Of a stretch of 43,202 nt of DNA, positions 3,373 to 38,870 are shown one piece after another (positions within the stretch are counted from its first letter, which is position 1; each line of letters begins with the position of its first letter). A program made the translations under genes and the position numbers. Origin of the DNA: Fistulifera solaris. Taxonomy: Eukaryota; Bacillariophyta; Bacillariophyceae; Naviculales; Stauroneidaceae. The stretch spans positions 1 through 43,202 of the forward strand of contig AP026170.1 of NCBI GenBank assembly GCA_030295235.1. The letters run 5' to 3'. The notes beneath the pieces are model-generated. The model did not search any database, had not been told where the DNA came from, and was given only the letters and a program-made list of their open reading frames with translations.

Positions 3373-3377
3373 GAGCT

Positions 3378-8056: not shown

Positions 8057-8093
8057 GGTGTATTCGATATGAGCGTGGCGTCTGTGATCACAA

Positions 8094-8289: not shown

Positions 8290-8294
8290 GAGCT

Positions 8295-10568: not shown

Positions 10569-11314
10569 ATGAAAGAATTGAGTTACAATACAATCAGTCA
10601 TGTTCTCGAATCATGGGAATCTCTTCGCCGGATAGCCAAGTGGGAGGAAGTAGCCGGAGTTTGTTTATTCCGAAAGTAAGTAGAGGAATACGCGAGATGA
10701 TATATCATTATTTGCTGACCTGCTGGAAGAGAAGTTTTTGCGTGCGTGTTTTCACTTGCGTGTACTGAGAAATCAATCCCTTTTCTAGACTTTTTCGTCG
10801 CTCTCCTCCTGCGAGAGTCCTTTTGGTTTCCCCATTGATATCGATCCGGATTCGGACGATCTTCGCTTCTCAAACGTTTCGTGACGCAGGCGATGTACAT
10901 GATTCAAATGCTCGATTCATCGATTAGTATGTTAGGTCCTGATATTGACATGCTTTCTGAAATTATGGTAAATATCACGCTTGCTAAAATATTCTTGCGC
11001 GAGCATTTGTTCCGATCTTACCTTGCTTTTTCGAAGGCGGAATTGGGAGCTAAGCATTCCAGGTAAGTCATCCTCAAAATTTATTTATGAGTCGCTACGT
11101 CTCAAGAGCTATATGGTCTCTGACAAATACTCTGTCTCCTTCGTGTGGAGGCAGATATGGTGTGCAACCGGAAATGTTTACCGTCATGGGCGAGTGCCTC
11201 ATTGAAATGTTGGCCGAGGTATTGCCAAATGGCTTGTCAACCGAGGCAGAGGCGGCTTGGCAGACTACTTACAAAGAGCTTTCTCAAGACATGATTCGAG
11301 CTTACGTCTCTTGA
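10569..11314 (+). CDS. Globin (haem-binding), four exons, two frame breaks
   Basis: A globin-fold protein read through three GT-AG introns: 10676-10788, 10968-11036 and 11063-11154 (113, 69 and 92 nt). Exon 1 starts at ATG 10569 and contains HVLESWESLRRIAKWEE and AGVCLFRK, the globin A/B helices. Exon 2 holds FGFPIDIDPDS, then KRFVTQAMYMIQMLDS and MLGPDIDMLSEIM. Exon 3 is only 26 nt (AELGAKHS); its His is in the usual proximal position of E-L-G-x-x-H in protist globins. Exon 4 gives YGVQPEMFTVMGECLIEMLAEVL and ends at TGA 11314. Total is about 150 residues, normal for a single-domain globin. Two single-base losses in exon 2 (TTTT at 10821-10824, and near 10867) break the frame. The expected role is O2/NO binding. 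Confidence 0.82.
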
Positions 11315-11664
11315 TTACCCGCTACTAAGAATGTAGCCTTGAACGATCTTCGGTGAATTAGGATTACATCAATTAACACGATAAGGTGATGTGATGAAAG
11401 TACACGCACGACAATATTGTTGAAATCAATCTAGTTCTACCATGCAACACTGCAATAACAAGCAACGCTGGTATGAGACGACTTCTCGTGTGTTGCTGTT
11501 GGCATTTTTATGTTCTAGCATTTGGTGCACCACGAAGCAAAGAAATTTTCCCTCATTGGATCCAAGTCCTGCTTGCCTATGCATTATCCATTTTGAATGT
11601 CAAATAGCGGCTATCAAATGTATGTGAATTCCTAAAGAATGAATAAGCGCCGGCTCGACAAGTT
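11315..11664. other. Globin-HSF intergenic gap
   Basis: No gene is recognised. A 61-codon frame at 11442-11627 has no recognisable domain. Confidence 0.4.
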
Positions 11665-12669
11665 TTGGTGCACCGTTGTGTCCCCTATTTTCAGGCGAAG
11701 TTGTCGCTCTCGGTACAAGTTCACAATTCCTTGGCAACCCTCATCAAAAGTAGCAAAGAAGCAGTAACATCTTCTACCCTTTCCTCTGAAGTCTATTGCG
11801 CCATGACAAACTTTCCAGCAAAGTTGCACTATTTGCTCGGTGAAATGGAAAAGATGGACAGAACGACATCATGTCCTGGCAATCGGATGGGCTATCCTTC
11901 GTGGTTCATGATAAAGCCCGTCTCGAAGAACACATCCTTCCACAGTGGTACCGACAATCTCATTACAGTTCGTTTCAGAGGTGCGTACGCTGAAAGAAAA
12001 CCCATCGATGATATTTCGTGCCTCATGATTTGTAATGCTCTCCTCTAGGCAACTCAACATTTACGGCTTTCAGCGTATTTCGAAGGGTGCGTTTTTCACG
12101 TCAGCGACATTATCTTCACCTCTCATTATATGACTCAATCGTTTTGCCGTTTTTCCACAGGAGTGCATAAAGGAGGTTACAAGCATGAGTTCTTTCAACG
12201 TGACAAACCAGAGTTGTGTGCGAATATTCCCCGCTGTCGAAAGAAAGGAAGAGTTGACATTATGAAACAGAGCAACATCACTCGTAATTGTGTTGGGACT
12301 AAAGCGGAAGCATCCATTCCCCGACAACAGAAATTTTCGTCGCGGTCCTGTAACGAAAACGTCGGGAGCGGTAGTAGTACCGATCGTAAATCGAGCTCTA
12401 TATTGTTGAATGATTACATCGGTGCCCTTTACGGTTTAGCTAATTGTCAGCAAGCCGTCTCGCGTAATGGCCTGATGGAAAACAAAACAGAAGGCCATCC
12501 AGATTTTATGCAAGCAAAGAGGAGTTGTATGCAACAAGTTCGAGTCTTTTGGATCGATTTTCCGATAGCAGCGAATGAACGACAGTCTTTGTCGATTCAT
12601 AATTTTCTGCATCATAGGCGCACTCATAACTCTTTAAAGCGAGCAGATTGCACTAATTCGTATGATTGA
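11665..12669 (+). CDS. Heat-shock-factor-type transcription factor (HSF 1)
   Basis: The HSF DNA-binding domain is assembled from three exons: 11665-11980, 12049-12086 and 12161-12669 (introns 68 and 74 nt, donors GTGCGTA and GTGCGTT). Exon 1 contains FPAKLHYLLGEMEK, then, after a one-base loss in the AAAA run at 11849-11852, DIMSWQSDGLSFVVHD and HILPQWYRQSHYSSFQ. Exon 2 encodes RQLNIYGFQRISK and exon 3 GVHKGGYKHEFFQRDKPELC. These are successive segments of the winged helix, including the recognition helix. The rest is a low-complexity tail with no clear hydrophobic heptad array. The start is uncertain, because conserved sequence begins only around codon 46. Two intron positions and phases match HSF 2 at 29258-30506. 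A nuclear regulator; HSF expansion is typical of diatoms. Confidence 0.85.
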
Positions 12670-13665
12670 ATAGGCTGATGCGTAGACAGGAATACATCAG
12701 ATTCTTTCTCCCGACAGTAGAACGGTGTTTTGAAACAATCGACTTTGGACGCTGAATTTTTAAACGTATTTGATGGACATCACCTCGTTTGGTCCTCGGA
12801 AATTTTTCAAATCCAGTCATTACTTTGCCCTCAGTAAAATGTCGATAGCTCCTTGCGCGTCAATCGGTTTTCGTTTCGATCGAGAATGACTGGTAAGACG
12901 ATAATTCGATTCTTTAGCTATAAAGACTGGAAGGATTGATTAACGCAACTGGTTGCAATCAAGGAATAAGAGGCAAGGAGATTAAGATCACTATAACAGC
13001 AAAAGTTCAGAGCAGAATGAATCATCATTGTCGCGACACAAAGGAGTAATTCATGGTGCACTAGACTTTCACTTCGACAGTCGCGCGAGGTTTTACTTGT
13101 CGTTTACGATATCACGACATGCATGCTAAGTTCATTGATTGATTATATCTTTCGAATGTTGATATTGATAGCGAACGCGGAGGAATGCGTGTTCATGCAA
13201 AAATGAAAATGGCCGGAGGTATACGAGGCCTATTCATACTAAACCATGGTTGGAGTTATCATCGGAGGTGCGCGCAGCAAAGTTGAAGTTTGAAAGTCGC
13301 TCGGTATTCGAGTTCTACTGAAGGAGTGTAGAAGATGCGACAAAGCGAACGCGAATCGGCCATTCAATTCGCGATTCGCATTTTCGTTGAAGACCAAGAG
13401 TAACCAATTGCATTGATTCAGTTGCTGATCAATGATTTCCTGCAATGCCTTCCTCTTCGCAAGGATTGATCTACTTAGTTATAATCTCACCAGAAAGCAG
13501 AGTGCGCTTCGCATTCGAACCCTGTTCTTCCATTCCTCATTTTCTTTCTGTTCTTGTGCGTGCAAAATTATTGTCCTTGTTACACGCCCTGTTGAGTCGT
13601 TAACTTCTTCTTTACAATTTGCCGACGATCAAGTGTAAACTGCATTTTGACGTATAACGAAGAAC
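12670..13665. other. Intergenic, nothing recognised
   Basis: About 1 kb without a recognisable coding frame. The short frame 13432-13638 is Cys/Phe/Ser-rich with no domain, and I do not call it. Confidence 0.45.
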
Positions 13666-14093
13666 ATGAGCAAACGGACGCTGCAATCCATTCAAGAACA
13701 TGGACAGGGTAGTCCGTTGCTGCCGTTTCCTCTCTTGCAGTTCAGCGAAAAGAGCTCCCCTCAAAAGTCGCGTCTACAACAAAGATCAAGTCGGTTGAGA
13801 CTAAGCGATCGACAAAGACATTTGTCTTTGTTAAGTTGCTTTTACAATATTTGGATCGTACAAACAACCATCTCATGCAGGTACAAGCAAAGCCATCATT
13901 GCCGAATGTATTCAACGCAATCGCATGGGAGACCCGCTCTATACCGACCTTCAAAAGCTCTCCAAGTGCATTTATCAGCGGTTCTAGGGTCAACAACGTA
14001 CACAGGTATTCGGCTATGCTGTCAGCGGCGATCTCGCAACTGCTCGATATGATCCAAAATGCCCTTATTTTTCTAGCTAATATTTGCCTGTAA
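13666..14093 (+). pseudogene. Unidentified coding remnant, possible KIX-like segment
   Basis: I cannot name this gene. ATG 13666 opens a Gln/Ser/Leu-rich frame. From about 13830 a more protein-like reading appears across frames: LLLQYLDRTNNHLMQ, then AKAIIAECIQRNRMGDPLYT and DLQKLSKCIYQRF. The AK-x-I-I-x-E-C-x5-GDP-x-Y pattern followed by an amphipathic helix reminds me of a helical (KIX-like) segment seen in diatom nuclear proteins. I cannot confirm this without a search. A TAG at about 13985 and frame changes interrupt it. Confidence 0.3.
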
Positions 14094-14896
14094 AAACTTG
14101 TTGTCTCTCGGCTCTCGTCTTTATTATCCTGCATAAAATGATTTGTTTCGGTCGCCTGTTCATACCTGGTAATGGACGTTTTAGAGGCGTAGTGGAAAGT
14201 CGATGAGTTTTTCATTTTGGTGTACCCATCATAGTACACTTAATTGTGTTTTACGCAGAAAGTGGCAGAAGAGAGAGAAAGAATGCTGCGATAGACCGCA
14301 TGGAAAGGAGCTACCTTCTGTAAATTGCAGATATCCACTTTGCTCTTGGTGAAACATTTTTAAACTAAAATGATCGTATTAACCGGACTCCAGTCACAAG
14401 CACGTCAACATCTGAAATTAGAGCTTGAAGTCAGCGAGTTTGTTTCATCCGAGGAAAAGCCAAAGATGAAGCGCAAACACTCTTGAAAATACTTTGTAGT
14501 ACCAGGTAATACTCCGTAGTAGTAAAAGTCATTTCAAATGTGCCTCTCGAGATTAGTCGTTGAGTGGAGAAGGTACTATAGTACCTAGTACCCTACCCTC
14601 TACTCCTATTGGGTTTTGGCATTGTTGAGCGGAGCATTTTTCTCCGGGCCTTGACAGCAAACGGCAAACTATTTTTCCGGAGTAATTAATAAAATGGAAT
14701 ATCATTCATAGATCTAACAAGAGATTTCACACTCGAGCTCATCAAGCCTATCCGCGAAGCAATCATGTGCCTGAAGAAATCAAAGAAAGCCAAAGCGTTT
14801 GAAAGACCCACGAACACTGCACTTCCCCGTAAGAAATCATTATCGGAAAGCGCCATGATCACAACTCAGATCACAGGCTCGTAAGCTGTTTTCACA
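14094..14896. other. Intergenic with GGTACC/TACTCCGTA motifs
   Basis: No gene is recognised. It contains GTAGTACCAGGTAATACTCC near 14497 and AGTACCTAGTACCC near 14579, both forms of the motifs recurring between genes in this window. Confidence 0.45.
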
Positions 14897-16546
14897 ATGG
14901 AAACAACCGATATTATGTCGCCTCTGAGTGTCGTTAGTTCTGTATCAAATGTATCAAATGCTTCGAATCGCTCGAAAAGCACAACCAAATCGAACTTTCA
15001 GAACCTATCGATAGCCAAAAGCTCGGCGACTTGTGTTGGCGCTTCACAGTCAAAGTACTCGTCAAAAGGAGACAATTCAAAGGAACACTCGTAACGTCGT
15101 TCTTTAATTCGTCGAGAATCCTTATCAGCGAAAGATTTGCTCGCTCTGATTGTGGAAGAACCAGGATTTACTGTGCGATTGTCGAAATCAATGACAGACC
15201 TCAAATCGTCCGTTAACGACCCACGAGCCCCAAAGAAAGCAGATCGGTTCCCCATCGTGAATTTATGCCAGTAGAGGTTTTAGCCCTGCAGACAATGGAT
15301 TTGGAGGACGAAGAGAGGGCCGTTCTAAGAAGTCGGTTATCACGGTCGATGACTGCTTTGCGATTATCCCCGAAAGTAAAGGCATTCGATAATATAACTA
15401 TGGCTAGCAAAAGCCGAAGAAAACTGGCTCTCACAAAGGCGGACTTTTCTCAGTACATGATGCCTGCTTTACCTGTTCGAGAAGATAGTTTAAATTTATC
15501 CGACAACCAGAATGCGCAATTTTCAAGCTGAATGCGCGAAGCCGCAAGGGTGACAACCATGATTCGCGTCAAGCATTCACATCACCAACGTCAGAGGGAC
15601 TGGTGAGCGGCCACTTTTCAAAGTCAATGAGCGACCTATCTACATCACAGCAGTCCTTTTATGTCCGACTGTCTCGCTCTCATTCGTCGGAAAGGATGCC
15701 TGCGATGCCAATCCGTCGCGGCAGCTTTGAGACCGGTGGTACTAGTATATCAAATTTCGCGCAAGGTGACATATCAAGGGTCCTCTCTTCGTTACATAAT
15801 TCTCCACAGCAATCAACGCCGACAATCAGTTTGAAAACACATTCACAATTGAGCATTCATGGGGCTGGTCCGAAGCGTCAACTTTAACACGCAGTTCACC
15901 TTCAATTTTACTAACGGACTTATATGGGCCACGGTGTGAACATCCTGGTCTTCGTCGGTCTTATTCGTCGGAACGAATGCTGTCGAAGCCAACGCGTCGT
16001 AACAGCGACCGCCCTTAACGAAAACTCACCTCCAAAGCCAGTGACTCCACAGCAGCACACACGCAGAACAGCTTATCAAAGGACATCGAAAACTTGTTTT
16101 GAAAAGCGCTTTATCGGTAAGATCTCCTTGGTATTTGAAGCAAGCGTTAATGCGCTTAATTGTCATTCCGATGAAGCACGAGATGTATTCAAAGACACGT
16201 CTTCTATCCTATCTAAGATGACCAGAGGAAATTCTAAGAGTAAACGCTCTAATTCATCCGGAGTAGCTCGTGTGTCGAAATCTATGTCGGAACTTCATTC
16301 AATGCTTCTTTCTCCCAATGGAGGGTCGTCTCGGAGCTATCTCGCTATCATACATCCGCCAGGATGCCTACGATGCCAAAGCGTCGTGGCAGTACCGATG
16401 ACGGAATCGAGTTTGCTAGGCATACCTCCAACCTGCATAAGTTTCGTGGTTTACCCGCAACGAACCGCATGAACACGCTGGTTTTGTACAATCACAGCAT
16501 TCAGTTGTTTCCGTGGACCAAGCTTGAGAAAGAGAATCTGGACTAG
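14897..16546 (+). pseudogene. Ser/Arg-rich protein with repeated SKSMSDL and RRGS motifs
   Basis: No known family is recognised. Starting at ATG 14897, protein-like sequence continues through several frames (14897-15094, about 15085-15255, 15265-15531, about 15520-15887, about 15880-16020, 16130-16330, about 16330-16546). Two motifs repeat. S-[KR]-S-M-[ST]-x-L occurs near 15182, 15340, 15618 and 16275. The other is LSRSHSSERMPAMPIRRGS at 15669-15725, with relatives at 15953-16006 and 16337-16393. The RRGS/RRNS ends resemble basophilic-kinase phosphorylation sites. One frame change is a missing T in TTTT at 15520-15523. The sequence is probably intrinsically disordered, with no signal peptide or membrane segment. 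It may be one gene with the coding sequence at 17279-19158. Confidence 0.55.
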
Positions 16547-17278
16547 CTATCACTACACCAGCTGCAAAGTCCAACATATTCTTCGACACAGCTCCATCCA
16601 GAAAATCTACGGTTGGGGAGTCACTTAACTGTTATGGTACCTGGAGAGGCAAGAAGTCAGGTCGGCAAGGCAATTTCAGCTCGTCGACTGTAACTGAGCT
16701 TACATAGCGTGTCGAAGAATTTTGATCCCCGCATAATAATCAAAGAGACAGGGAGCAATCTTTGTGAAACATAATGCCGAAGAGTTGAAGCTGCTCTGTG
16801 TTCGTGCTTTTCAAAGTGCAGACATAACGATAGATGAGATAGGAGGCTATCTTAGGCAGCGAGGCTAGCAAAATACTCCGTAGTTTACTAAGATGGTTTT
16901 GCACCTATCTTAGTCGCGCTTTTGTTGCACACCTACTATTGGTCTAGGCTATGATCCAGGCAAAGAGAACTGAAAAGACGACAAGTGAAGCTCGCCGCAC
17001 GAACAAACCACTTATTAATGTTGCGCTGAGCTCTTCAGCCCTACAAAGAGTTGGTTTGCTACTGGGAAGGAAGGATTGTACTTTAAGTCGATCGTCGAAA
17101 GTAGAAAGTCATAGACAAATATCATTTAGCATTAAACATGATTATACCTTATACGTCTGTCCTCTGTCATGTAGATAGTGCTGTCATACAATATACTTTC
17201 TAGAGAGGAGGAGTACATTATTATTTATTCTTTCTTCTTTCCTTCGTCGAAGGTGAAGTCTTAAGGTGTAGAATCCAA
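16547..17278. other. Gap between two blocks of repeat-motif coding
   Basis: No recognisable protein motif. Short frames only (16951-17178 plus). TACTCCGTAGTTTACTA occurs at about 16875. It could be an intron-like or decayed segment, or separate the two coding blocks. Confidence 0.35.
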
Positions 17279-19158
17279 GATGCAAAAGCTCCCCATGATA
17301 CTCTTTCGCCCTTCGAACGACAATAAGATTTCTACCCCTCGAATTCTCAAGAAACGACGAAAGGAAGAGAATAAACGCTTTGACAAGTTAGCCGAATCGC
17401 ATAGCCTTCTGCAAGGTGAGGTTGAAACTGACTTTTGTTGTAAATCGTGGCAATGAGAAGAGAAGCATCCGACAACTTAACTTTCCGTCAGGATTTTGGA
17501 ACGCCGATGTCATCGCTACTCGCTTCACCCGCTCGAGAATCTGTTTATGCGGAAATCCTAGTGAACTATTCGCATCCGCTCCTCGTTTCGCCGTTGGGTG
17601 AAGAAATATCTCCACTGAAGCGTTTACCAGTCCCTATGATCCCGGCGATCGAAGCATGCAACATTCGTCAAGCAAACCTTCCCATAATGAAAGACCCAAA
17701 ATAAGAGAGGCAGCCTTCGCAGCGTCGTCGAAACGAGAGGCCTTGCTCGAGCAAAGTCAATGGTTATTAGGAGTAGCACCACTAAATCAGCTTCTTCAAG
17801 AGAGCTTCAGTCGCATATGAAAACATTTCGTCGGTCACGAAGCACTCTTCGAATCCTGATCTCCAACTGCAAGGATATGCAGCGCGCCCGCAACGCACTA
17901 TGATGAGTAATGCACGGTGGAACAATGTCAAATCTGAGAGACTCAGCAAATCCCTTGACTTGGAAAATGTGTTGATAACCGACTGTTTGGTCGACATGGA
18001 CAAGATAAGCCGTGACAATCCTGGGGCAAACTCGTCACTAGACCTGCAAGAGGTATTTGGCAAGTCGTCAGACAAGATAAATACTGAAAGAAGGAATATG
18101 GGTGCAGATTCACGACGCAGTCTTGGTGACTCTGCAAGTAAATTAGACGAGCGGTCAGGATTGGCTCCTCGGCGTCCGGTACGGTTGCTGAGCCCCATCA
18201 AAAGAATAGGCATTATTCAACACCGGAACTTGGATGTAGGCTGGGTGATCTCGAAAGGAAGCAACGTCGAGCATCGATGAGCGATGAGTGGGATGACTCG
18301 GAGAACACGGAATGTTCCCTAGAACTAAGCAATGTCTTCCCTGACTTTCAACGAGAGCAGAATCACATTCCTGTAAGACACGATAAAAGTCGAGGCATTG
18401 CACGGACAAATTCATCCATCGACTTGCTGAATGTTTTGGGGATCTCTCCACGGAATGGAGCCTTCGCTATCGAAACGACCAGCATCCACGTCAACGAGTA
18501 TCTTTCGAACAACACCCCGGTCTCAAAGCGACAAGAACATCAACAAGTACAGCTCGAGCCCAAATCTAGGCCACAAGCGCTACGTATCTCCCACAAGTGT
18601 GATGGACGTGAACAATTCTTTGGATGATTATTCCACAGGTAACGCAAATAGGAGTAATCAATCGGAGTCAGGAAACAGTGTATGTTCGGGACGACCGGAA
18701 AACGTGTTCAGTCAGGGCGTGTCGACAAAGACGAACCATGATCGTAGAAATCAATTGCCATCACCGCCAACAAAAATCATTCCCGGTCGAACATCCCATG
18801 AACCTCTGAAGTCGATGCAACCATTACAACTACGACGCCCAACGTTGGGGCTACAAAATACAGCTCAACTCCAGAGCTTCATCGAAGAGTTCAAGATTCA
18901 CGATCGGGAACATTTGAAAACGGCTTCTCAAGGCACAAGATGGAAAATACCCATTGGGAGCCTAATAAAGCAAACGGTCATGGAAATGCTTTTATGTCAG
19001 CAAGCACTCCTCTCAACTCGGTCAGGCCTTTTAGTCGCGGCGTCACACGGACTACCTCATCACTTGACTTGAGCTTAGTCTTTGGCTCGTCTCTTGGGCA
19101 TATCAAGGGACGTCAGTTTAATAGGTTTTCGAAATCTGAGATTCAATCCCAAATTTGA
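17279..19158 (+). pseudogene. Ser-rich protein with repeated SSLDLxxVFG motif
   Basis: No known family is recognised. ATG 17279 starts a Lys/Arg-rich N-terminus (LKKRRKEENKRFDKLAE), followed across frame changes by RREASDNLTFRQDFG (about 17455) and further Ser/Arg-rich sequence. A decapeptide then recurs: SKSLDLENVL (17945-17974), SSLDLQEVFG (18032-18061), CSLELSNVFP (18313-18342), SSIDLLNVLG (18412-18441) and SSLDLSLVFG (19057-19086). The spacing is irregular, in otherwise disordered Ser/Asn/Arg-rich sequence. RRAS occurs just before the segment at 18277. The stop is at 19158. The motif core S-x-S-[LI]-[DE]-L also resembles SKSMSDL of the preceding block, so the two may be one gene or tandem relatives. 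Confidence 0.55.
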
Positions 19159-19920
19159 GCTTACCAGTCATCCTTAAAGAAAACTGATGCAACTAAAGCT
19201 AAACTACTTCATCATTGTCTGTCATGTAACTTTATCGGCACGAGACGTTGTATGCAGCTCAAATTGAGTGCAGTCCACAATTTTCGGGATTGAGACTTAG
19301 TTGATAGGAATCGATTCTTTTGCGCGACATGGACTTGTACGGAGTAATTGATCATCGTCGTCTTTCTTTGAGACGAGAACGATGGATAACCAAGTCGAAA
19401 TGGTCTCACGCTTTGTTTCATCTTTATATATTATCTGAACCGACTTACCTTGCTATTACGTACGCAGGAACTATTATCAGTGACCGGGACTGATAAGAAG
19501 TTCAGTCCGTCATATATTATGCACTTGCGTATGATACTTGATGTATCGTTTCGCAAGTGCCAAGTCTCAAGAATGCCGTAAGCGCCAGTAGCCCGAACAC
19601 TCAACTACTGGTACTTTAGCAGTGCATCCGCGATTCAATGACCGTGGTAGGAATAAGCCCTTAATTGTTTTAGATTCTTGCCGTTTCCGGCCTTATACAT
19701 TTACCTTGACTCGCGACTCCAATTTCTCGATATAGTATGGACTCTAAACGAAGCATCCAGCAGACTTCCTATGACCTGTGTCACGGTAGTGGATACGACT
19801 TTAACAAAATATGTAGACAGGACTAAGAATTAGACTAGGCTTTAGTATAAATATTATTTTTACTTAGGATTAATGTTGAAGGGCAGCTTTAATTCTCGAG
19901 TTTTTATCCCTTAATATTGT
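19159..19920. other. Intergenic, nothing recognised
   Basis: No gene is recognised. TACGGAGTAATTG lies at about 19338. The minus-strand frame 19421-19212 has no domain. Confidence 0.45.
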
Positions 19921-21515
19921 ATGTTTGGACTTAGAAGAAGAGTTTTTCGCTTTTCTGTGCAGGCAAAAATCACTCCTCCCAACCTCCATGTCTCTCAACG
20001 TCGAAGAACTACGAATAAAGGCAATCAAACACCTAGCACCATAATTTTTGTATGCAGTCAGGATATCAAGATAGATCTTGCTTTATCAAATGCCAAACAG
20101 AGAGCGAAATCGAGCATCTCTTGTTCAACCACTTGAGAGACGACAAAACTAGCAACGCCGTTACGTGAATCTCCGTGCCAGAAGCGCAACGCGCCTTCGA
20201 AAACGATCATTGAAACTGCCCTGATTGCGTCTCCTCGTGAAGCGAAGACAATACTATCTACTTCTTCTGAAAAGAATTACGGCATTCGATTACAGTCGAA
20301 GAGAAGAGATTCCCGCAAAGAAAGTCTCCAATCACTTCTCTGGATAAGTTTCTGGCTTCTTCATCGCGTAGATCCAAGAATCGCGTCAAAAGTCCCAAAG
20401 GCGTTTGTGAGCTTCGAGAAGAATCACCGAGCTTTCCATTATTTTCAAAAATAATACTTCCTACCAAATGAGTCGAGAAGATTGTTCAGCTGTCGTCGGA
20501 AGCGAGCAGAAGACTACGCAGTCGCCTCATCATTTCACGCAACGACGACAACACGTTGCTGTAAGGATCCCTGAGGAAGAAAGATCGCCTTTAGCAGAGC
20601 AGTCGCAGTACGAGAAATCACCAACCTACTTTCCTGCTGTTGATTATATTACAAGCACACGCTCTGATGTGTCGCCGCAAAAGCCGAAGCGAGTATCTGA
20701 TGCTGAGTCCAGAGCCCCACCATCCGATAATAAGACTCAGCAAGCACCGCCAACTCCAAGCAATGCAGCACAGGACAAAACTGACCCAGCGATAAACAAA
20801 ACGTCGATAGCATTCCCACCAAGCCGACGAGAAGCTTGAGCAAGGGTGCAAAGACACAGAATGCAGTCTTCCGTCCAAAGACGCCACAGAAACGCTTCCT
20901 TAAGAAGGGAATCAAACTTAGTCCTACTCTTCTCATGGCTTCCCTCTCATCACGTGCTGCAAAGATGAAAGCTATCGTAGAGTCCCCAAAAGCATTAAGG
21001 AATCTATTTGTTGGTATTGTGTCACCAAAATCCGCAGGCGACGATACCCATTCGATCGAAACGCCCACGCAAAAGCGAAGGTAACGAGCATCAGCCGAAT
21101 GATGGCACCCGACTTGGCAGTTTCAACATCAGGAGCAAATGAGAGCAGCTCCTCCTTGAAGATTTCCGATCTATCGGATCCACCTACTCGGGCAAGGCAA
21201 ATGTCGTTACCCGAAGTGTTGGGTCAATCGTTACAACACAATTTAAACGGTGATGACATTATGGATGATATGTTCGATAAAGACAGTGAAAATGGGACCA
21301 TTGGCACCGAAGATCAGCGTACACCCTTGTGCTATGACCGTTGGCACTGTTCAACGCCATGTCTTCCATCGCCCAGTTTCGCATTCCACCAGAGATCAAT
21401 GCGACGCTTGGACAGTCCAACTCACGAAAACAACAGCAACAACAAGAACGATTCGGCCACCTTGCAATTCATGCCGACAAAACCTCGTCGCTACAACAGC
21501 AGAGAATGTTCCTAG
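19921..21515 (+). pseudogene. Ser/Pro/Lys-rich low-complexity protein, frame-disrupted
   Basis: Function unknown. Coding-like segments occupy 19921-20136 (Arg/Gln-rich), about 20280-20440 (Arg/Ser-rich), 20468-20830, 20800-21084 and 21085-21515. The reading passes from one to the next by single frame changes; for example, the frame at 20468 is continued by TKPTRSLSKGAKTQNAVFRP after about 20815. Basic proline-directed sites (SPKAL, SPKSA, KTPQKR) dominate the middle. RQMSLPEVLG at 21195-21224 resembles the SSLDLxxVFG motif of the preceding gene, and RSMRRLDSP lies near 21396. The end is Asn/Ser-rich. No signal peptide or membrane segment. Possibly a third relative in a local family. Confidence 0.45.
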
Positions 21516-21628
21516 TGGCACTAGTCACGATCAGTTTTCTAGCAAGGATTTTTCCTCAGATTAACATTTTGAAGACGAATTTTAAAATATAGTTCACAGT
21601 TATCACTCATGTGCGGTTAACTGCACTT

Positions 21629-24336: not shown

Positions 24337-24341
24337 GGAGT

Positions 24342-26136: not shown

Positions 26137-27663
26137 CTTGGAAAGTTATCTATTCATGAAGCTTCATTGTTGGCTGCCTTAAGCGTTATTGCGTTGCGTT
26201 GCAACATGTTTGTTATACGGGTGGTCTTTCATAGTAACAGTGTGACATCGACTGGGATTTGGCCCTTGGCGTTGGCTTGAAGAACCGCAAACTGCGAATG
26301 CCTCTGCAGTTTCCTTGCAAGTTGCCTCGAGGCCGAAACTGCTTGCTGTCCCATCAGTCCGTCAACGCAGATGACTAGAGGGTAGTGAAATCACGTCTGC
26401 GTTCATCGCACGGGGTCCGTACGTGCTCCGTTTTACGCTCTTGAGCAGCCAAAACCTTGGACCTAGCTGCAAAGCGACCAAAATTATTTAGCCATCGACG
26501 TCGACAAGTTAAGCAGATTTTGACTTGTCTCAAGGATCACAGGGTAAAGGAGACTGAGTCTACAGCACGTAAGTTTAGAAAACAGGTCAACCTTCAATGT
26601 TTCAAAATGCTAATAACTAATAACGCATACAACATGCGTACATCATACATCATACATCTTGCATCATCATAATTAGTAACCAGTAACCCGTACAAAATAA
26701 CCAGTAACCAGTGACGTGTGTGACGGTCACTGCTAACCGAACTTTGAATCGTGAATATATTGAAGCTTGAAGCATGAGCATGTGACGGCGAATCTAGAAT
26801 CTCTAGAGTCTGGAGTCTGGAGTAGAGCGAAGAGAATTAGCCCAGTGACATGTGACATCGAAATTGACCGTCGACCAAAGACCGAAAGTCGTAAGTCAAC
26901 GTCGAACGTCCAAATCTCGAATCTCGAAAGCGTACAACGTACAACTGGTCTCCGTCATCGACAATAGAGAAAGCAATACTAAAGAGAGACAAATTCAAAA
27001 CAGGTAGATTACACCCGGGACATATTCTGCGATGCGAAAGGCGATAAACCAAAACCAGGTGCATGATGAGGGTCGTTAAGGTCGTTACCCTCGTACCGGT
27101 AGTCGTTAGATGTAGAGAAACGAGGGCTCTCCTGGTAGAAAAATGAGAACCTAAGTTTTACGTGAATAGCAACCTCGCAACCTCACACGAAAGTTACGTT
27201 TTAGGACATTACCCCGTACTTGTAGTGTTTTAAATTATTTCACACTATGGCCTAGACTCTCAACTCTTAACCACAGTGAATAACTAAGGACATGATGTTC
27301 TACGTAGCGTCTCTTCCTAAGGTCACAAAATAGACATTCACGATTAATTGGGTGTTGTTGATAGAATCCCTTGCTGACTGTTGTATTGGACTGAAGTAAG
27401 ATTGTACAACTTAATGACCTCGGACCTTGGAGTTGGCGCCTACGAACAAGTGTTTTATCGCTTTTCTTTTAGTCCATGCAGTTTTCCCAATAAGCTTCTA
27501 TCGGACGCTGTCCCTTCACCGACGTCGCTGGTTCCCCTACATTATAGCCAATTCTCGGCAACTTCTTCTGCGTTTTGTGTCTGATTTTCTCCGTGTTCAA
27601 AACCTCTCAAAAGTCAACCAATGTTTCAAGTGCTTCTCTCTCGAGGCATCAATTTAATATACC
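26137..27663. other. 1.5-kb intergenic region with simple repeats
   Basis: No gene is recognised. Stretches near 26640-26660 (ATCATACATCATACATC) and 26675-26720 (repeated CCAGTAAC) are simple-sequence. TTCTACGTAGCGTCTC is at about 27299. Frames at 27381-27657 are unsupported. Confidence 0.5.
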
Positions 27664-28902
27664 ATGGGGATCCGTACAGCACATAAAGCACCTACACCAC
27701 AGGGCCCCTCGAAAAGACAGCACCGAAACATATGAGGGGTCGAGTGCAAGCAGCGGCAACGGCATGCTTCCGGAATCGGGTTTTGCCTTCAAACGCCGCA
27801 CGCAAGAGGTTTGGTGCGAGCCGCAAAACACATCTCGCATTCACCAACTTTCAGTGTCAGCGGACTAAAGAGTATTCCATCGTTTTCTAGGGATGATTTG
27901 GAGGTTGGGTCTGTTTTAGGTGTCGGTGGGTTTAATTTTGTCAACAAAGTCAAGACGGACAAAATCAAAAATACAAAGAAGAGCAAGTCAAGAACAAACC
28001 CTAATTCACAAAGTGACAAGCTTGTCGTCAAGACGCTGTTTCCTCACACAACACCGAGTCAATTACTCTCCGGCTGTCATCAATTAGAAAGGAAAAGCGA
28101 GTGCTTTCACAATTGAACCACCCAAACATCATTTCACTAAGGGGATACTCCGAAAGGGTCTAGATAGTATTGCTGAGACAAAACGTATCGATTCTTGCTT
28201 CCTTCTACTCGACTTTCTTCCCGAAACACTCACGGATCGCATCGAGAAATGGGGTAGGATCATAAGGACATCACCGAAGAAGAAGACACAACGTCGATGG
28301 ACTTTGTTATCCAGAAAGCGTTTCCCCTTCGATCGAGAGATGTTCATCGAGCAAATACAAGTTGCCATTGATATTGCCAGTGCTCTACGGTACCTACACG
28401 AGAAGCGAATCATTCTCAGAGATCTCAAACCGGTAAGGGACTTCCAAATCGTCATGCTTTCTGTGTTTCTTTTGTCACTGTCTAACTCTTGTCGAACTCG
28501 AAACGAAAGGACAATGTCGGCTTCGATGAATCTAATTGTACAAAGCTGTTCGATTTCGGTCTCATTGCACAGCTTCCTAAATTTTGCAATCTCGACAAGA
28601 CACACACCATTCCTGGAAACATCGGAACCCCGCGATACATGGCGCCTGAGGTACTTCGAGCAGCCTTACAACGTGAAAGCCGATGTATTTTCGTTTTCCC
28701 AAGTGCTTTGGGAGATATTAACCCAGAACGAGCTCCTGGTGCAAGTTCTAGTCGTCCTGTTATTCCTAAGGAATGGCCAGGAACACTACGTAGAATCCTG
28801 GAGCGCGGCTGGTCGGAAGATCTGAATGACCGACCGTGTATGACGGAATACAAGTACGCTTTAGAAGATTTACTGCGTCAAGCTAAGGAAGCGTCCATTT
28901 GA
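27664..28902 (+). pseudogene. Protein kinase (TKL-like), frame-disrupted
   Basis: ATG 27664 opens a basic N-terminus with an in-frame TGA at 27733. The kinase domain follows: DDLEVGSVLGVGGFNFVNKV (Gly-rich loop, about 27892-27951), KLVVKTLF (ATP-contacting Lys), KRVLSQLNHPNIISLRGYSE (about 28096-28155), IASALRYLHEKRIILRDLKP and, after a 77-nt phase-0 intron (28433-28509), DNVGFDE, LFDFGLIAQL (DFG), GTPRYMAPEVL (APE), YNVKADVFSFSQVLWEILTQ and IPKEWPGTLRRILERGW with NDRP. The D[VI][FY]S[FY]xxxLWE and WPxxLxxIL segments fit TKL kinases. The catalytic loop reads I-L-R-D instead of the usual H-R-D. Frame changes occur near 28093 (AAAA), 28160, 28665 and 28735. The family phosphorylates Ser/Thr in the cytosol or at membranes. 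Confidence 0.85.
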
Positions 28903-29257
28903 TTACTATAACACAAACGCACATTTACAGCCGCGCAAACTTCATTGTCAGTATTTTTTAAAAAACATGATTTACAAGTTTTAGTATAAATTACCATCTT
29001 CTTTGCTTAGTAACACGTTGTACTTTTGTTTTGTTTTGTCAAATGAGAGCGGTATCGGGAATCGAATGGTTTGCTTAGGTCTCAAACTAATGTCGCCTTG
29101 ACCAGAAAGGACTTATGAATTTTCAATCATTTGAGGGAGATCGCCTCTCTTTTTGCACCGAAATGAATTCCAATCAATGATTAGACCAGCAACGACAAAC
29201 GCAACTGATAGTGCAAAAGAAGGACCGTATCGTGCATGTAAAGTTTCTTAGTGATTT
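28903..29257. other. Convergent intergenic gap
   Basis: Lies between the 3' ends of the kinase (plus) and HSF 2 (minus). AT-rich, with no gene or repeat recognised. Both terminators are expected here, but no specific signal is claimed. Confidence 0.4.
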
Positions 29258-30506
29258 TTAAAATGAAGATATGGAATGCCAGAATGGAATGCCAGAAAAG
29301 ATATGCAAATCGACGATGAGGTTCAACGAGATCAATGATCTGGCTCGAATTTTTACTTTTCGAGAGGATGGCGGGCAGAGAAGGCTGAAGTGCGGAGCGT
29401 TGGTGAATGTTGTAATAGCCAAAGTATCCTGCTGTTGGCGATGAGGGACTCTGGTTCGTCCAAGCGCGACTGTTTCGGGTAATAATTCATAATTATTCGC
29501 TCCGTCAGAAACGACAATCATATCCGGAAGAGGAATGGCATGACGGGCCATGGTGGTGGGCGTAGACAGTCTGAGGCACACGATGCGGTGGAGGCAACTC
29601 ATAGCAAGATCGCGGCTGAGTTGGAGGTGTCGACCAGGGTGCCGGATCTCGCGTCTCAGGCGGATCGAACGGGGGTGGAGAAGTAATTGCTTCGGGCGAG
29701 CTTCTGCTACTTCCACCAGCGGTGGAAGCGGTTCCATATGGTAAAAGTCAGGAAAAGTATCGTCGCTGCTGGCTTTGCGAGCTCCTGTCCCTTTGAACTT
29801 TTGACGCGGAATTCTCTGAGCTAGCTCAGGCTTTCCACGAAGAAATTTCTCATGGAAATAGCCACCTTTATCGGGTCCTATTCGCAAGAAATGAATACGA
29901 AGCACCGCTTGTCAGAGAAAACAAGTCATATCTGCTATCGACAGAGGTGCATACATTTTCGACTTACCTCTGGGGATTCGTGAAAAGCCGTAGATATTGA
30001 GCTGTCTGTGAAACGGATAAACGGAAGGCTGCGTGAGTCAACGATGGGCCAATTGAAGTCTTTTCTTTGACCATCAACAATCTGCAAGCGACTAAGACAT
30101 CCGCAATATACCGTCCGGTTACGCACCTTTGAAACGACGAGTAATGCGCTTGCCGAAACCATCTATTAAAGGAATGCGGTGAGACGTTGTAGGCAATGAT
30201 GAACAAGCTCCCAAGTTTTACTTACGTCGGTAATATGTGCTGCTCCAAACGTTTCTGATCATGAACGATGAAGCAGCGACCATGAGGTTGCCAAGACATG
30301 ATGTGCTCCATGCCATCCTTGGCCATCTCATTTAGGACATAGTGTAGCTTATCGGGAAAGTTATGTCTGACAGGAGACGAACGCAAAGGCGATGGCGCTG
30401 ATTCTTTAATAGCATTGCCGTTCGCCTTCTCGAGATTTTGCTTGTCGTGGCTCATGGCAGTTTGACAGAAGTTGACAGATTTTCCTTCTCTTTTGATTCT
30501 TAACAA
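29258..30506 (-). CDS. Heat-shock-factor-type transcription factor (HSF 2), intact
   Basis: Four exons on the minus strand (30506-30226, 30162-30127, 30005-29968, 29877-29258) with GT-AG introns of 63, 121 and 90 nt join in frame to 324 codons plus stop. An alternative start is ATG 30455. The HSF winged helix reads FPDKLHYVLNEMAKDGMEH, IMSWQPHGRCFIVHDQKRL, EQHILPT|WFRQAHYSSFQ|RQLNIYGFSRIPR|GPDKGGYFHEKFLRGKPEL (bars mark introns). The last two intron positions and phases are shared with HSF 1 at 11665-12669, and the first is extra. The C-terminal 170 residues are Arg/Leu/Pro-rich without a recognisable oligomerisation domain. A sequence-specific nuclear regulator, and one of only two multi-part genes in this window without frame damage. 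Confidence 0.92.
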
Positions 30507-30828
30507 AACCGAAGCTTGCTAAATTTGTGAGGAAACAATGTGGGTCGCATGGAATGGTTCAAAAAGCGCCACGGATCTTGGTACAGGTTCGACAGGAAGA
30601 TTCGCATAGAAGGAAGAGAACTTCATCCGATCGAGGAGGAAGTTTGTAGAGATGATGTCCCGTCACTTCTCTAATTTACAAAACATATGGATATTTTACG
30701 ACTGGCCACGGCGTCATCGATAAAGAGTAAGAAACAATGTGCAAGGAACAAAGGTGACCTTCCAAGCCTAACGTGAGGCTTGGTTGGTACTTGTGTTTTG
30801 TTGGTGAGTTTCGTGGGGTCAAATTTTT
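30507..30828. other. HSF 2 upstream region
   Basis: About 320 bases between the HSF 2 start and the copia LTR. No gene is recognised. It presumably holds the HSF 2 promoter. Confidence 0.4.
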
Positions 30829-30999
30829 TGATTATGCCTGTAGCCACTGCGACACCCATAAGTGACGTGCCTAAGGAAATCCCAGAAATCCTCGAATCAG
30901 GACTTCAGTTCCTTCGCTTCCTTCGCAATCAGGCAACATTATGCCCATTAATTAAGTAGAACACTTTTGTTGCTGACTTTGACTTTATAGATATCAACA
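30829..30999 (+). repeat. Copia 5' LTR
   Basis: Matches 32642-32812 over its whole length, including CAATCAGGCAACATTATGCC and the end TTTATAGATATCAACA. Confidence 0.88.
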
Positions 31000-31124
31000 G
31001 TTCTCTGAATTCCTGTTCTTATCATCACGTTCAGTGTATTCTCTCGGTCAGCCAGCGTCGCTATCACCATTGCCATTGTGGCATTCTGCTTATCCAGCAC
31101 ATTTGTGTACTCCGTGTCATCACC

Positions 31125-32100
31125 ATGACTGATCTTTCACCTTCAACCATTTGTGTGCCTCACGAAAACCTCACTCCCATTCCGGCAAACCTTCTTACGT
31201 CACCGTTGACCGCTTATACAGTGAGGTCATTCCCAATGCTTTGGCCGTCCCCTCGACACACGGTCACAAATTTCAACTTCTCACCCATCCTGGAACACTC
31301 ATCCCTTACCCCGCTAATGCCACGAGTGCCCAGCGTGCAGGCGTAATTGCGCACATGACAATTGAGGATTATCTTTGCCAGGAATACGTCCATCAATTCT
31401 TCGACAGCAGATCATTGTTGCTGTTGAGCCCATTTACATGATGTCTCTCCATGGTACAGAGGTCGGATTGGGCCATGTCAATTTGGAAACCGGTAGTGTG
31501 TCGGTATTACACCATGCTGGTTTATCTAAAGACAAGTTCACCAAGATCACGGCGCTGAGATTGAAGCCAATTGTCTCAGCCTTACGCATGGGCGTCCGAT
31601 CAACCTATTCAGGCATTGTGGAATCGACATGTGGAAATCCGTGATTTTGCTGTTGCAGCGGAAGAACCATTGTCCGGGGATGAGTAGATGGATCACACTC
31701 TTAAAATTGCTGGCCATGGCACATTTCAGTCAGCCATTGATGCTTGGCGTCGTCATTCTGAGGCGGACAAAACTTACAAAAACTTTGTGGAGTACTTCAC
31801 TGCGGAACATGAGGCATTGCAAGAACAACTCACCACCTCTACCGCGGGATATCATCACGCAAATGCAGCTGGTACTACAATCCCTGCTGTCATCCCACCG
31901 ACAGCCACCGCCAAGCACCATGGCCCTAGACCCATGAATCCGTTGCGAAGTGAAAAAGTGCATGAAGGGGTTTTGTATGTATTATTGTTGGACGCACGGT
32001 CTTGGTATGAATGCCGAACATACCAGCAAGACCTGCAACCACCGGCTCATGGTCCGTTCACACTGCCACACTCAAGTCGGCGAATCTCAGTGTGTCGAAG
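31125..32100 (+). pseudogene. Copia gag remnant with zinc-knuckle-like motif
   Basis: ATG 31125 (just after TCACC) starts gag-like sequence that changes frame early. Recognisable pieces are KFQLLTHPGTLIPYPANAT and AHMTIEDY (31270-31380), a helical stretch DAWRRHSEADKTYKNFVEYF (about 31740-31800), and YCWTHGLGMNAEHTSKTCNH (31979-32040). The last fits the C-x3-G-x6-H-x4-C nucleic-acid-binding knuckle of diatom copia Gag. Several stops and frame changes interrupt it. Confidence 0.7.
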
Positions 32101-32641
32101 CGAGATCCCGTGTAGCTGGTTACTAGTTTTGAGCTCAATCCCACCAAACTTCCCGATCTGACTTCTCCTCCAATTAATGGTGACATCACCATTTATTGTC
32201 AAATCATGAAACACATGGTGTCAAGTGCAGCCAAAGCCAAACTTCGGTGCTTTATTTCTCAATGCACAAAATCGTGCCCTTGCGTATTGCTTTGGAGGAA
32301 ATGGGTCATCCCAACCTGCCACTCCAATTCAAACTGACAACAGCACTGCTGCTGGCATCGTCAATGACAAAGTCAAACAAAAGCTCTCCAAAGGCGAAAT
32401 GGATATCTGCGATTTTATTGGATTCGTGACCAGCGCAAAGGTCAATTTCATGTTTACTGGAAGGCTGGCGCTGCAGGCAAAGCGGATTTACTTTTCCAAG
32501 CTTCATGCTACTTCACATCATCGCACAATGTGTCCGATGTATCTTCCGCGACAATTCATCTACATCTTATTAAAGCCATCTCTCCTCATCAGGATGTTGC
32601 TCAGTCCGTTCCCGACTCTGGGCTTTGAGGTGAGGGTGTAT
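32100..32641 (+). pseudogene. Copia RNase H remnant
   Basis: The end of copia pol is read over two or three frames: VSSAAKAKL then GALFLNAQNRALAYCFGGNG, IQTDNSTAAGIVNDKVKQKL, MDICDFYWIRDQRKGQFHVY and WKAGAAGKADL. The AEAEL- and TDN-type acidic sites of copia RNase H are recognisable, although the first Glu residues have become Lys. The run GATTTTATTGG at 32411-32421 lacks one T relative to the reading D-F-Y-W. Confidence 0.8.
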
Positions 32642-32812
32642 TGATTATGCCTGTAGCCACTGTGACACCCATAAGTGACGTGCCTGACGCAATCCCAGAA
32701 ATCCTCAAATCCAGGACTTCACTTCCTTCGCTTCCTTCGCAATCAGGCAACATTATGCCCATTAATTAGTAGAACACTTTTGTTGCTGACTTTGACTTTA
32801 TAGATATCAACA
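32642..32812 (+). repeat. Copia 3' LTR
   Basis: Matches 30829-30999. It is preceded by the purine-rich GAGGTGAGGGTG (about 32627-32638), a plausible polypurine tract. Confidence 0.88.
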
Positions 32813-34580
32813 AAATTCTACCTCGTCGAAAGGTCTTTTTGCTTCACTAATACAATTGCTAAGCGAAAGAATTCTTATTGGAGTAAACTTCAGGTGCTTA
32901 AGTTGATCCTTATTCCTGTTCTTCACAATGACTGCGCCCAAGTCCATTTGGTCGACGCGCTGAATCAAGACAATTTCTATTGTATCGGCAGTTCTTCATT
33001 GACTCTAGTATTTGGTTAGGAACAGGTTGAGTCAGATCTGTGCATCAAACTTCCTTGATGTAGTGAAAGGCGAGCGTTTCACCTGAATTGCTTCTCTTCA
33101 TGGAAGACTCCGTGTCATCTACATTGAAGTACATTGGCGTCACCAGGCGGTGACTTCATTCTGAAAACTTCAATTGAAATCGCAAACACATCGCCGGTTC
33201 AGGGTGGGGTGACAGTTACACACAAGGACTTCTTTCTATCAGCTGCGGGGTTCAATCACTGCCTGTCGGATAAAACCAATTTATGGTACCGGTACCAGGG
33301 CGCTTGAGTGACGAATAACTTCCACGATGCGCCAGCCAGCTCAAAATAAGTCACCCTTCCCCCCAGCGGTGGAAGGTAATTCGACCGGCGCTCATATTAC
33401 AAGGCATAACTCCGGCAATGACAGAGCCAAGGCGTTGTCAGCGCAGTAGTTTTCATAAGTCACCTTTTGTTAAAGGCTGGGTGGCATAATTGTGCAAAGA
33501 CCTTGAAGGCAAATAAAGCCTTCTTTGCTGGCGTTTTGTTCACAGACCAAGTTTTGCCACAAAACGTTGATCAATTTGCTTCTCCCACCGCGGGAAATGG
33601 TCGTGGAGTATTAGATCTTCTTGCGAAAGCACACAATGCTGAAACAAGCATTTGTATTCTCCACTAAACATTGATTAAGGCTCAAAAGTGCTTTGCCAAT
33701 GTCGATTGGCCACAGTCATCAGTGATAGTTGCTCTGTAAAGTTTCTGTTTTGTTTGGACTGCGTCCGGCGTGACCTGGGCACAATGTATCAAACAAATCA
33801 TTTCCAGAGCTCCACCATCAGAAAATTGAACTTATCTTTTGCCCACCTTCCCACAGTAGTTACTTCTAATCACCAAAACATGTCGGTTGAACACATTACA
33901 TTGTCAGACCGTTCGCTTCCACTAAATTGTTTGGATCGCCAAATCCAACTGAGCCCTATGATAGACTTTAAGTCAGCTCTATAATCACTAAAGTACCGGA
34001 AGGTAATAGTATCCTTGTAGTTGAAACCGTGCAAAAATATTCTAGGAAATTGTGTGGCGGGTGAATACGGGTGTCGGCATCGGATGAAGCGATGAGAGAA
34101 CAGATATCTTCTAGCAATTCTAAGCATCGAACTGTAGCGACATTTATCACTGACAACGAAAGCCTCCTTCACTTGCAACAGATCTATATGCCTTACTCTG
34201 TACATCCTATCAACAACAAAAGCGGTTACTTGCTTTGCAGAGATTCCAAACAATGAGTTCTCTTAACAAGTTGAACAATAGGCGCCCATAGGTTTGGAAA
34301 GCTCTTTCATTATCACCTATTGGCGGGTGGTGCTGCTTTCATCATTTTGAAGAATCATCATCATCGATCATTGTCAAACTAAAGTGTTCATTTGCCTTGG
34401 CTCGGCGTAGCGTTGCCAGCTACGCGACTAAAACCTCTAAGAATCGCCGTATCACTCGAGACTAACTCAGTCGGTTTAACTTCGAATAATAAGGTGTAGT
34501 CGATGGTCCCTGCGTCAAAATATGTACGGAGTACAACTTATTGTGGCGATGCTTTGGCAATAACATTCTAGCTGAAACGA

Positions 34581-34604
34581 GTCGTCGTCGTCGTCGTCGT
34601 CGTC
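34581..34604 (+). repeat. (GTC)8 microsatellite
   Basis: Eight perfect GTC units. No coding frame is supported over it. Confidence 0.95.
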
Positions 34605-34725
34605 TGTAGAAGGTTATAGTGACTATTGACTATGAAAAGTCGTACGGCCGACGGACAAAACTTACCAGTCATTTTGATGCCATGCCACGGCATACGCCAT
34701 GGCCTACCAGGTATGGCCTCTCGGT

Positions 34726-34770
34726 TCTCGGTACCCTGGTACCGGTACCGGTACCGGTACCAGGTATCGG
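34726..34770. repeat. GGTACC tandem palindrome array
   Basis: GGTACC hexamers are stacked in a row and end in CCAGGTATC. The array is a long near-perfect palindrome. A shorter version (GGTACCGGTACCGGTGGTACC) lies at 34909-34929. Confidence 0.85.
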
Positions 34771-35057
34771 CCGTTCTGCTTCCTTTTACGCACCACTGTA
34801 ACATGGTACTCTACATTTCAATTTCATACAGCATTCACATCATTCTATTTTAGTCAGTTGAAAGCTTCAACGGAAGTTGGTCGTAAAATCACACTCAGGA
34901 AATAAAGCGGTACCGGTACCGGTGGTACCTACGACTTGCGTCGTAGTCTCCCTCGTGTCGATTGTCGATCGTGCTCCTGTGAATGCCTCTTTTGATTGCA
35001 AAACATAATAATAACAGCTACAGTCACACGTAAAGCAATTAAAAACCGGCGGAGGCA

Positions 35058-36582
35058 ATGAGAATTCTTTCGTGTGTTTTGAGTCGAGCGTCTTTCTCGC
35101 GACAGCTCCTACATCTTCAGATGCATTTTGGTCATTTCGACAAAGAGAACGAACCCAACGAGCATTCTAACACAGCAGGAGCCGTGCCCGAAAAGCAGCC
35201 GAAAGTTATACCTGATTACAGTATTTCCAGTCCTGCGCCTCCCTCACGCGATTCACCGAACACGATTTCCTACGGCGTCGACGTGAGCTTACCAATTCAT
35301 CATAATACAATTAGCAACAATTACGCTTGGTTGCCTCACAATGTCGATCCGTCGCTCGAAACACCTTCCAAATACCGCGACATGCCCATTCAACCTCTTC
35401 CGCATCGTCAAAATTCTATGATAACTTCTTGGAGAGTTGCGTGCAAGCTTTGGTAGGAAAGGACAACGCTGCCGTGATACAGAAAGAGATAGAATCGAAA
35501 TGAGTTTGCGACAACCACAATCGATGCAGAATTACACCGCAATAGGCTACAAGAAAATCAAAGCACCCCAGAACTATTCAAGTTGATTGAAGAATTTTGG
35601 AACAACAATCATCACAAGGCGAAACCGGAGCAGTGGGGACGGGTAATACGTACACGAACAATTGGCAATCGTCGAGTTCGATGGTTAGTGTAGAAGACGC
35701 CAAGTTACGAGGTGGTGGCTTCACATTGAAGCAGAAGATCTGGAATGCAGCCAAGAATATTCTGCAAGTGGACAGGAGAAGAATTGACGCAGTGTAGTTT
35801 ATACGGTATTCGCATCTATCACGCGGACGCTGTGTTGGCAACCCATGTCGATCGATTGCCTTTGGTGAGCTCTGCGATCATAATGTCGCCCAAGATTTAG
35901 ACGAGCCTTGGCCTTTAGAAGTTATTGGTCACAATGGAGTTGCAGAAAATGTTACCATGGAGCCCGGTGATATGGTTTTGTATGAGAGTCATTCTGTGCT
36001 GCACGGACGCCCGTTTCCTTTGAAAGGGCGCTACATGGCCAACATTTTCATTCATTTCGAACCCATTGGGCACTCTTTGCGTCACTACGACAACCATAAC
36101 ATTGGTGATGTTGATGTGAAATATAGGAGTCCTTGATGAAGGGCCATGGCGGTCACGAGAATGAGTCAATAATGGATTACCGCCCTACATTATTGCGGAA
36201 GTCCTGAAGAGCCACATTGGCGACAATCTCATCCCAACGGTCAACAGCCTCAGACCAGCAAAACTTTTACAACTGGGTCGACACCCGCGCATGAATTCGC
36301 ACAGAAGGAAACGTTGACTTGTTGGCGGCCGAGCTTTCGAAACAAAGGATTTGGTCCACGCCAAGGATGCCAATGATTGGACTCCACTTCACGAAGGTGC
36401 ACGTGCTGGCCATTTACCGGTAGTGAAATTACTAATTGAACACGGTGCAGATGTCAATGCCAAGACGGGTGGGGGTAGCGGTGGAACACCACTGTGGTGG
36501 GCCGACAAACGCTAGAAGAAGATCATGAAGTGATTTCTTTTTGGAAGAAATTGGTGCATTAGATGCGGGCCCAGAATTGTAA
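35058..36582 (+). pseudogene. 2OG-Fe(II) prolyl-4-hydroxylase-like protein with ankyrin repeat
   Basis: ATG 35058 gives a leader, then DNxxAWLPHNVDPSLETP-type sequence, RQPQSMQNYTAIGYKKIKAP, IEEFWNNNHHKAKPEQWG, GNTYTNNWQSSSSMVSVEDA and WTGEELTQCSLYGIRIYHAD. The oxygenase core has the Fe-binding H-x-D in LATHVDRLPLVSSAI (His 35844-35846, Asp 35850-35852). It continues with DEPWPLEVIGHNG, MEPGDMVLYESHSVLHGRPF (distal His 36002-36004) and, after the 2-oxoglutarate side, KGRYMANIFIHFEP. An ankyrin repeat follows (NDWTPLHEGARAGHLPVVKL, IEHGADVNAKTG), then a tail GALDAGPEL. At least five frame changes are needed, one of them a missing T in TTTTT at 36538-36542. Proline hydroxylation of a protein target, probably in the secretory pathway or cytosol, is inferred. 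Confidence 0.8.
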
Positions 36583-38834: not shown

Positions 38835-38870
38835 AAGAGAAACGTCGAAAGGTGCCGAACAGAAGTCATT

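Follow-up and report, generated by a model that had tools for sequence, protein, structure and literature searches.

Introduction

Homopolymer-enriched systematic indels that break many reading frames, and that a relative exposes, are described in parts of the Homopolish paper (PMC8011154) for small genomes (bacteria, viruses, fungi and metagenomes). False pseudogenes made by nanopore indels, again in small genomes, are the subject of the Kastor work (PMC12007338). In repeats, according to a portion of the Polypolish paper (PMC8812927), reads align to the error-free copy and the erroneous copy is left uncorrected. Here, we compare with these systems a contig of the diatom Fistulifera solaris (assembly GCA_030295235.1, contig AP026170.1, hereafter C52), which was analysed whole (43,202 bases, called the window below) and belongs to a genome of 61 contigs and 51,715,745 bases. 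An earlier note on this DNA had explained its many broken genes by systematic under-calling in a long-read assembly. We conclude that C52 is very probably a redundant, scarcely polished nanopore consensus of the right end of a larger contig, C24, and that the breaks in its genes stem mainly from the assembly.

The locus resembles the Homopolish cases in that homopolymer-enriched indels break frames and a relative exposes them, the Kastor cases in its probably false pseudogenes, and the Polypolish case in that a near-identical second copy would keep the erroneous one uncorrected. In contrast to the small genomes of the first two, a second copy in the same assembly and a homoeologue in the same cell serve here as yardsticks, and unlike the Polypolish repeats, the duplicate here was probably created by the assembly, whose polishing we infer.

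The assembly stands as Fsolaris_ONT_v03reference in the reference list of a survey of 49 diatom genomes (PMC12159174), which marks it as an Oxford Nanopore Technologies (ONT) assembly. Sections of two papers describe F. solaris as allodiploid, with homoeologous chromosome pairs (PMC13276009, PMC5935921). Paired matches on contigs C5/C6, C13/C14, C23/C24 and others are consistent with this. The homoeologous yardstick used throughout is contig C23, and the control is a single stretch, the neighbouring 50 kb of C24.

Contig C52 is a redundant copy of the end of C24

Window positions 1-43190 correspond to the right telomeric end of C24 in a single alignment of 43,599 columns, and both copies terminate in TTAGGG-type repeats.

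1..43190, plus strand: redundant, error-rich copy of C24:872631-916092 (alignment with 141 mismatches and 386 indels)
42858..43202, plus strand: subtelomeric repeat ending in TTAGGG-type repeats, common to many contig ends, with some irregular units in C52

Thus, C52 is near-identical over its full length to part of another contig, as expected of a redundant contig. It is the shorter copy at 291 of the 386 indels and the longer at 95. Outside two transposon regions delimited below (33.7 kb remaining), the copies differ by 40 substitutions and at least 183 indels.

C52 might instead be a true second haplotype, or a recent segmental duplicate with mutations of its own; such a copy could also be error-ridden, as the two readings are not exclusive. 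Its status as a separate contig bearing a telomeric repeat, and the 40 single-nucleotide polymorphisms (SNPs) in those 33.7 kb, would fit such an origin. However, indels far outnumber SNPs, the opposite of the divergence between C24 and C23 in the duplicated stretch (4354 mismatches against 189 one-base indels), and four other small contigs are likewise redundant; we consider this origin unlikely.

These four contigs of 35–50 kb were sampled in part and non-randomly, C49 through a match that hinted at redundancy and C47, C50 and C53 through telomeric matches; C48, C51 and C54-C61 were left out of the sampling. C49 is near-identical to part of C40 (39 indels and 12 mismatches in 10 kb), C47 to part of C28, C50 to part of C27 and C53 to the left end of C24 (1.5 kb sampled for each of the last three). 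The small-contig samples hold 5 homopolymer runs of at least six bases in 31 kb, compared with 15 in 17 kb of C40 and C3. The contrast is weaker with eight HSF loci of large contigs, which hold 13 such runs in 26 kb.

C52 lacks single bases, and the homoeologue mostly sides with C24

The earlier note held that almost every break is one base lost at a homopolymer. One-base frame breaks are indeed abundant, but of 211 one-base losses in C52 relative to C24 only 99 (47%) fall in runs of at least four bases, which hold 6.6% of the bases of C24, and 50 affect bases that belong to no run. Long runs are scarce: C52 has 8 runs of at least six bases, compared with 39 in the matching stretch of C24, 55 in the neighbouring 50 kb of C24 and 83 in 87.5 kb of C23. 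C52 therefore shows both the enrichment in homopolymers and the loss of long runs that under-calling would produce, though not exclusively at homopolymers. Moreover, deletions exceed insertions in C52 against C23 (162 one-base deletions, 68 one-base insertions) as they do against C24.

C23 could judge 172 of the 386 indels between C52 and C24, the other 214 being beyond its judgement; it favoured C24 at 111, C52 at 12 and neither at 49. For 33 SNPs judged in the same way, C24 was favoured at 22, C52 at 6 and neither at 5.

A further motif came to light post hoc. The G of GAA (or the C of TTC) is lost in 18 of the 114 one-base deletions of C24 relative to C23 in the duplicated stretch, against a background of 4.75% of all bases, and having been spotted there it was tested on the separate losses at single bases found in C52 alone (10/50, against 7.1% of single bases; P 0.002). 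In C24 outside the duplicated stretch it accounts for 4 of 53 deletions, and the difference between inside and outside is not significant (P 0.22). The error is thus not homopolymer shortening alone, since G-of-GAA losses and the CpG-linked errors in transposons described below contribute too.

Genes in the duplicated stretch are broken but look ordinarily selected

The end of C24 matched by C52 (C24:872631-916092) also has an excess of one-base deletions, which makes it unfit as a clean reference. Relative to C23, C24 has 53 one-base deletions in the 34,622 bases aligned outside the duplicated stretch and 114 in the 27,790 aligned inside (P about 1e-9), while one-base insertions number 67 outside and 75 inside (P 0.05) and indels of a multiple of three bases are nearly flat (2.37 and 2.77 per kb). 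In coding sequence, one-base deletions amount to 0.78 per kb outside, 2.68 in the duplicated end of C24 and 4.65 in C52, and one-base insertions to 0.62, 1.14 and 1.08, respectively. Compared with this one 50-kb neighbour, the excess is limited to the duplicated stretch.

Reading frames follow the same order. Using open reading frames (ORFs) of C23 of at least 150 aa, aligned over at least 80%, we found at least 95% of the aligned bases in one frame for 1 of 16 ORFs in C52, 3 of 16 in the matching C24 stretch and 15 of 26 in the neighbouring 50 kb (P 0.0009 for C52 and 0.024 for the C24 end, each against outside). Counting ORFs with any frame-changing indel gave 17/26 outside, 14/16 in C24 inside and 15/16 in C52, which is not significant (P 0.16 and 0.06 for the last two). 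ORFs of at least 250 aa cover 2% of bases in C52, 12% in the C24 end and 31% in the homoeologous stretch of C23.

Mismatches to C23 at the three codon positions (C23 ORFs of at least 200 aa) are 9.5, 7.7 and 21.8% inside the duplicated stretch and 8.0, 6.2 and 19.6% outside. Because the bias towards the third position is retained inside as well as outside, the genes of the duplicated stretch look ordinarily selected; signs of selection persist despite the broken frames, as under-calling would have it.

These observations bear on the possibility that the genes are real pseudogenes in a subtelomeric block decaying after allopolyploidy, the lesions being inherited by both copies. The subtelomeric position, a homoeologue that could act as a working spare, and five break sites identical in C52 and C24 (globin, HSF 1, J protein, hydroxylase and histidine kinase) speak for it. 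A decaying block should have lost its codon-position bias and accumulated all kinds of indels; instead, the codon pattern is that of selected genes, the excess lies mainly in one-base deletions and indels of a multiple of three are scarcely raised. Long runs are also scarce, and 386 length differences separate copies that are otherwise nearly equal. Real decay is accordingly a highly improbable source of the broken genes.

How errors may have persisted in both copies

Systematic under-calling remains the best account, given a duplicate with hundreds of length differences, their polarity against C23, the few long runs, the selected genes and the ONT origin. What the earlier proposal lacked was the redundancy of C52 and the errors common to C52 and the end of C24. 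Nanopore basecalling would have shortened runs and dropped single bases, errors that would have been largely corrected elsewhere in the assembly. With two near-identical targets competing for reads, the better one, C24, may have drawn the reads, so that C52 stayed uncorrected, and errors that the two had in common would have survived in both. Most of these genes are thus probably intact in the living alga, and biologically the finding is ordinary.

Several observations weigh against this account. Eleven of the 26 control ORFs also fall below 95% in one frame, because stop-to-stop ORFs take in non-coding ends. Mismatches to C23 are more frequent inside the duplicated stretch (15.7%) than outside (12.7%), and higher divergence alone would raise indels somewhat. 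Of the 114 one-base deletions of C24 inside, 67 are at single bases, and as they lie mostly outside runs, part of them may be real divergence or another type of error. Deletions shared by both copies lie no further from C52/C24 differences than random sites do (median 66 against 73 bases, permutation P 0.88), which means that this direct test of the mapping-tie model failed. Five of the breaks recur in C24, and had polishing been complete there, they would point to real mutations. Finally, long open frames occur in the sample of C53 (ORFs of at least 250 aa cover 36% of its bases, and the longest has 512 aa), which indicates that not every redundant contig is badly broken.

Individual genes and break sites

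The genes concerned are as follows.

8968..9663, plus strand: presumably bZIP-like gene, absent from the earlier list of broken genes (C23 ORF at 916701: in-frame fraction 1.0 in C24, 0.68 in C52)
10569..11314, plus strand: globin gene (Pfam Globin, E 3.9e-7, on 11135-11311; three-way alignment)
11803..12669, plus strand: HSF 1 (PF00447 on the C23 copy)
14938..16546, plus strand: Ser-rich region (site 15520-15523 the same in C52, C24 and C23)
25595..26089, minus strand: J-domain protein (PF00226 in the window and in C23)
27736..28902, plus strand: protein kinase (kinase domain matched by Pfam in C23)
35430..36582, plus strand: gene that we take to be 2-oxoglutarate hydroxylase-like, after the earlier naming, plus ankyrin; shared break (single 389-aa ORF in C23; start interpolated from that ORF)
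38259..38909, minus strand: membrane-protein-like gene, broken (231-aa ORF in C23)
39277..39846, minus strand: unbroken gene, internal control (100% in one frame in C52 and C24)
40487..42641, minus strand: hybrid histidine kinase, fragmented (a single 790-aa ORF in C23)

In C23, Pfam matched HSF, DnaJ, kinase and histidine kinase domains; in pieces of the window it matched globin, DnaJ, HATPase_c and ankyrin. The 389-aa ORF taken for a hydroxylase in C23 gave ankyrin repeats alone, and the Pfam search of the bZIP-like window piece gave no match above the cut-off.

Of the seven runs given with positions in the earlier note, four were borne out by C23. It has one extra base within the run or immediately next to it for globin (10821-10824), J protein (26035-26038) and prolyl hydroxylase (36538-36542), and beside the run for HSF 1 (11849-11852), with C52 equal to C24 in each case. 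Others held in part. At the kinase (28093-28096), C52 alone is short of a base that C24 and C23 have, but a few positions upstream of the run. The histidine kinase is one base short against C23 in C52 and C24, yet about 17 bases from 40495 and not in a C run. In the membrane-protein region (38.2-38.8 kb), an A run is two bases shorter than in C24. The gene at 39.3-39.8 kb is unbroken, as had been stated. The earlier observation stands but was overstated in detail, and its list was incomplete, as 15 of the 16 C23 ORFs tested are below 95% in one frame in C52.

HSF 2, which had been called unbroken, has one stop in its Pfam-matched stretch (C52 equal to C24), and against the C23 ORF there are four frame-changing indels in both copies. 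The matched stretch may hold an intron. The copia site (32413-32416) has no C23 counterpart, and five C52/C24 indels lie within 25 bases.

The proposed loss in the Ser-rich run (15520-15523) finds no support, since the run is the same in C52, C24 and C23, and C23 too shifts frame there, between two overlapping ORFs; an error and an intron or gene boundary are equally likely here. Programmed frameshifting or introns could be imagined behind the frame changes more generally, since introns occur in diatom genes and the Ser-rich region shifts frame in the homoeologue as well. However, C23 is open straight through at the globin, HSF 1, J protein, hydroxylase and histidine kinase sites, and a single base is no intron. 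As a general explanation this is scarcely conceivable, and we rejected it at the sites that C23 reads through, the Ser-rich site excepted.

In the Ser-rich region, C23 has ~176 extra bases at window 15526-15542, with ORFs overlapping in two frames; they are possibly an intron or a repeat difference. A phage database search of window 14800-20800 gave no match. The last gene block before the telomere is inverted in the homoeologue (window 40192-42746, C23:950293-952874).

Differences in retrotransposons cluster at CpG

Two elements of the window concern the transposon regions (2.9-8.3 and 30.8-34.8 kb), whose limits were drawn manually on the basis of substitution density and ORFs and independently of CpG.

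3994..7602, minus strand: retrotransposon remains, presumably of Ty3/Gypsy type, with CpG-linked C52/C24 differences (two of the four pieces searched matched Pfam RVT_1 and RT_RNaseH)
30960..32644, plus strand: copia-type element, so named in the earlier note (three pieces searched with Pfam without a match; C23 lacks a counterpart at 32413-32416)

In these regions, 73 of 101 C52/C24 substitutions lie at most three bases from a CpG, compared with 31% of bases (P 2e-17). The same holds for deletions outside runs (29/37, compared with 35%) and insertions (35/52, compared with 31%), and deletions in runs of at least four bases show a weak excess (9/24, compared with 20%; P 0.07). The rest of C52 shows no CpG clustering of substitutions (11/40), non-run deletions (5/13) or insertions (12/43), against 36-41%.

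Plain CpG decay would alter the C or the G itself, by transition. Among the 101 substitutions, the changed base is the one before the C in 24 (12 of them A>G), the C in 18, the base after the G in 14 and the G in 8. The commonest changes from C24 to C52 are A>G (27) and C>T (15), many adjoining a CpG. Against three other copies of a 1.5-kb transposon piece, 30 substitutions divided into 13 private to C52, 5 private to C24 and 12 mixed; with less stringent alignments, made earlier, the numbers were noisier. Since some are private to C24, the C24 transposon is not error-free either.

A-to-G and C-to-T changes are given as common systematic nanopore miscalls, the target of methylation-trained basecallers, in part of one paper (PMC11170131). 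They are also the top substitutions in the transposon regions of C52; that work concerns bacterial methylation, whereas here the sites are CpG in diatom retrotransposons, whose methylation is presumed. In Phaeodactylum, loss of DNMT5a leads to a global loss of CG methylation, transposons being major targets, as a portion of the report states (PMC9998398). The DNA_methylase family has 11 matches in the F. solaris genome. We lean slightly towards the view that C52 retains an imprint of DNA methylation, methylated CpG in retrotransposons having been miscalled by nanopore. If so, F. solaris would methylate CpG in retrotransposons, and redundant nanopore contigs could reveal methylation in the absence of a methylation assay.

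Consequences for gene counts

Annotation of C52 and of small contigs like it would yield genes scored as copies that are extra, broken or missing. Where the duplicate gene groups of F. solaris come from is called unclear in part of the survey of 49 diatom genomes (PMC12159174). Redundant contigs could add a small part of these groups, of which the homoeologous subgenomes would be the obvious main source. It is unsafe to infer pseudogenization or a loss of HSF genes at this end of the chromosome from this assembly, whether from C52 or from the last 43 kb of C24.

The HSF family is large in F. solaris. Its DNA-binding domain gives 151 matches genome-wide, a count per exon that takes in homoeologues and duplicate contigs as well.

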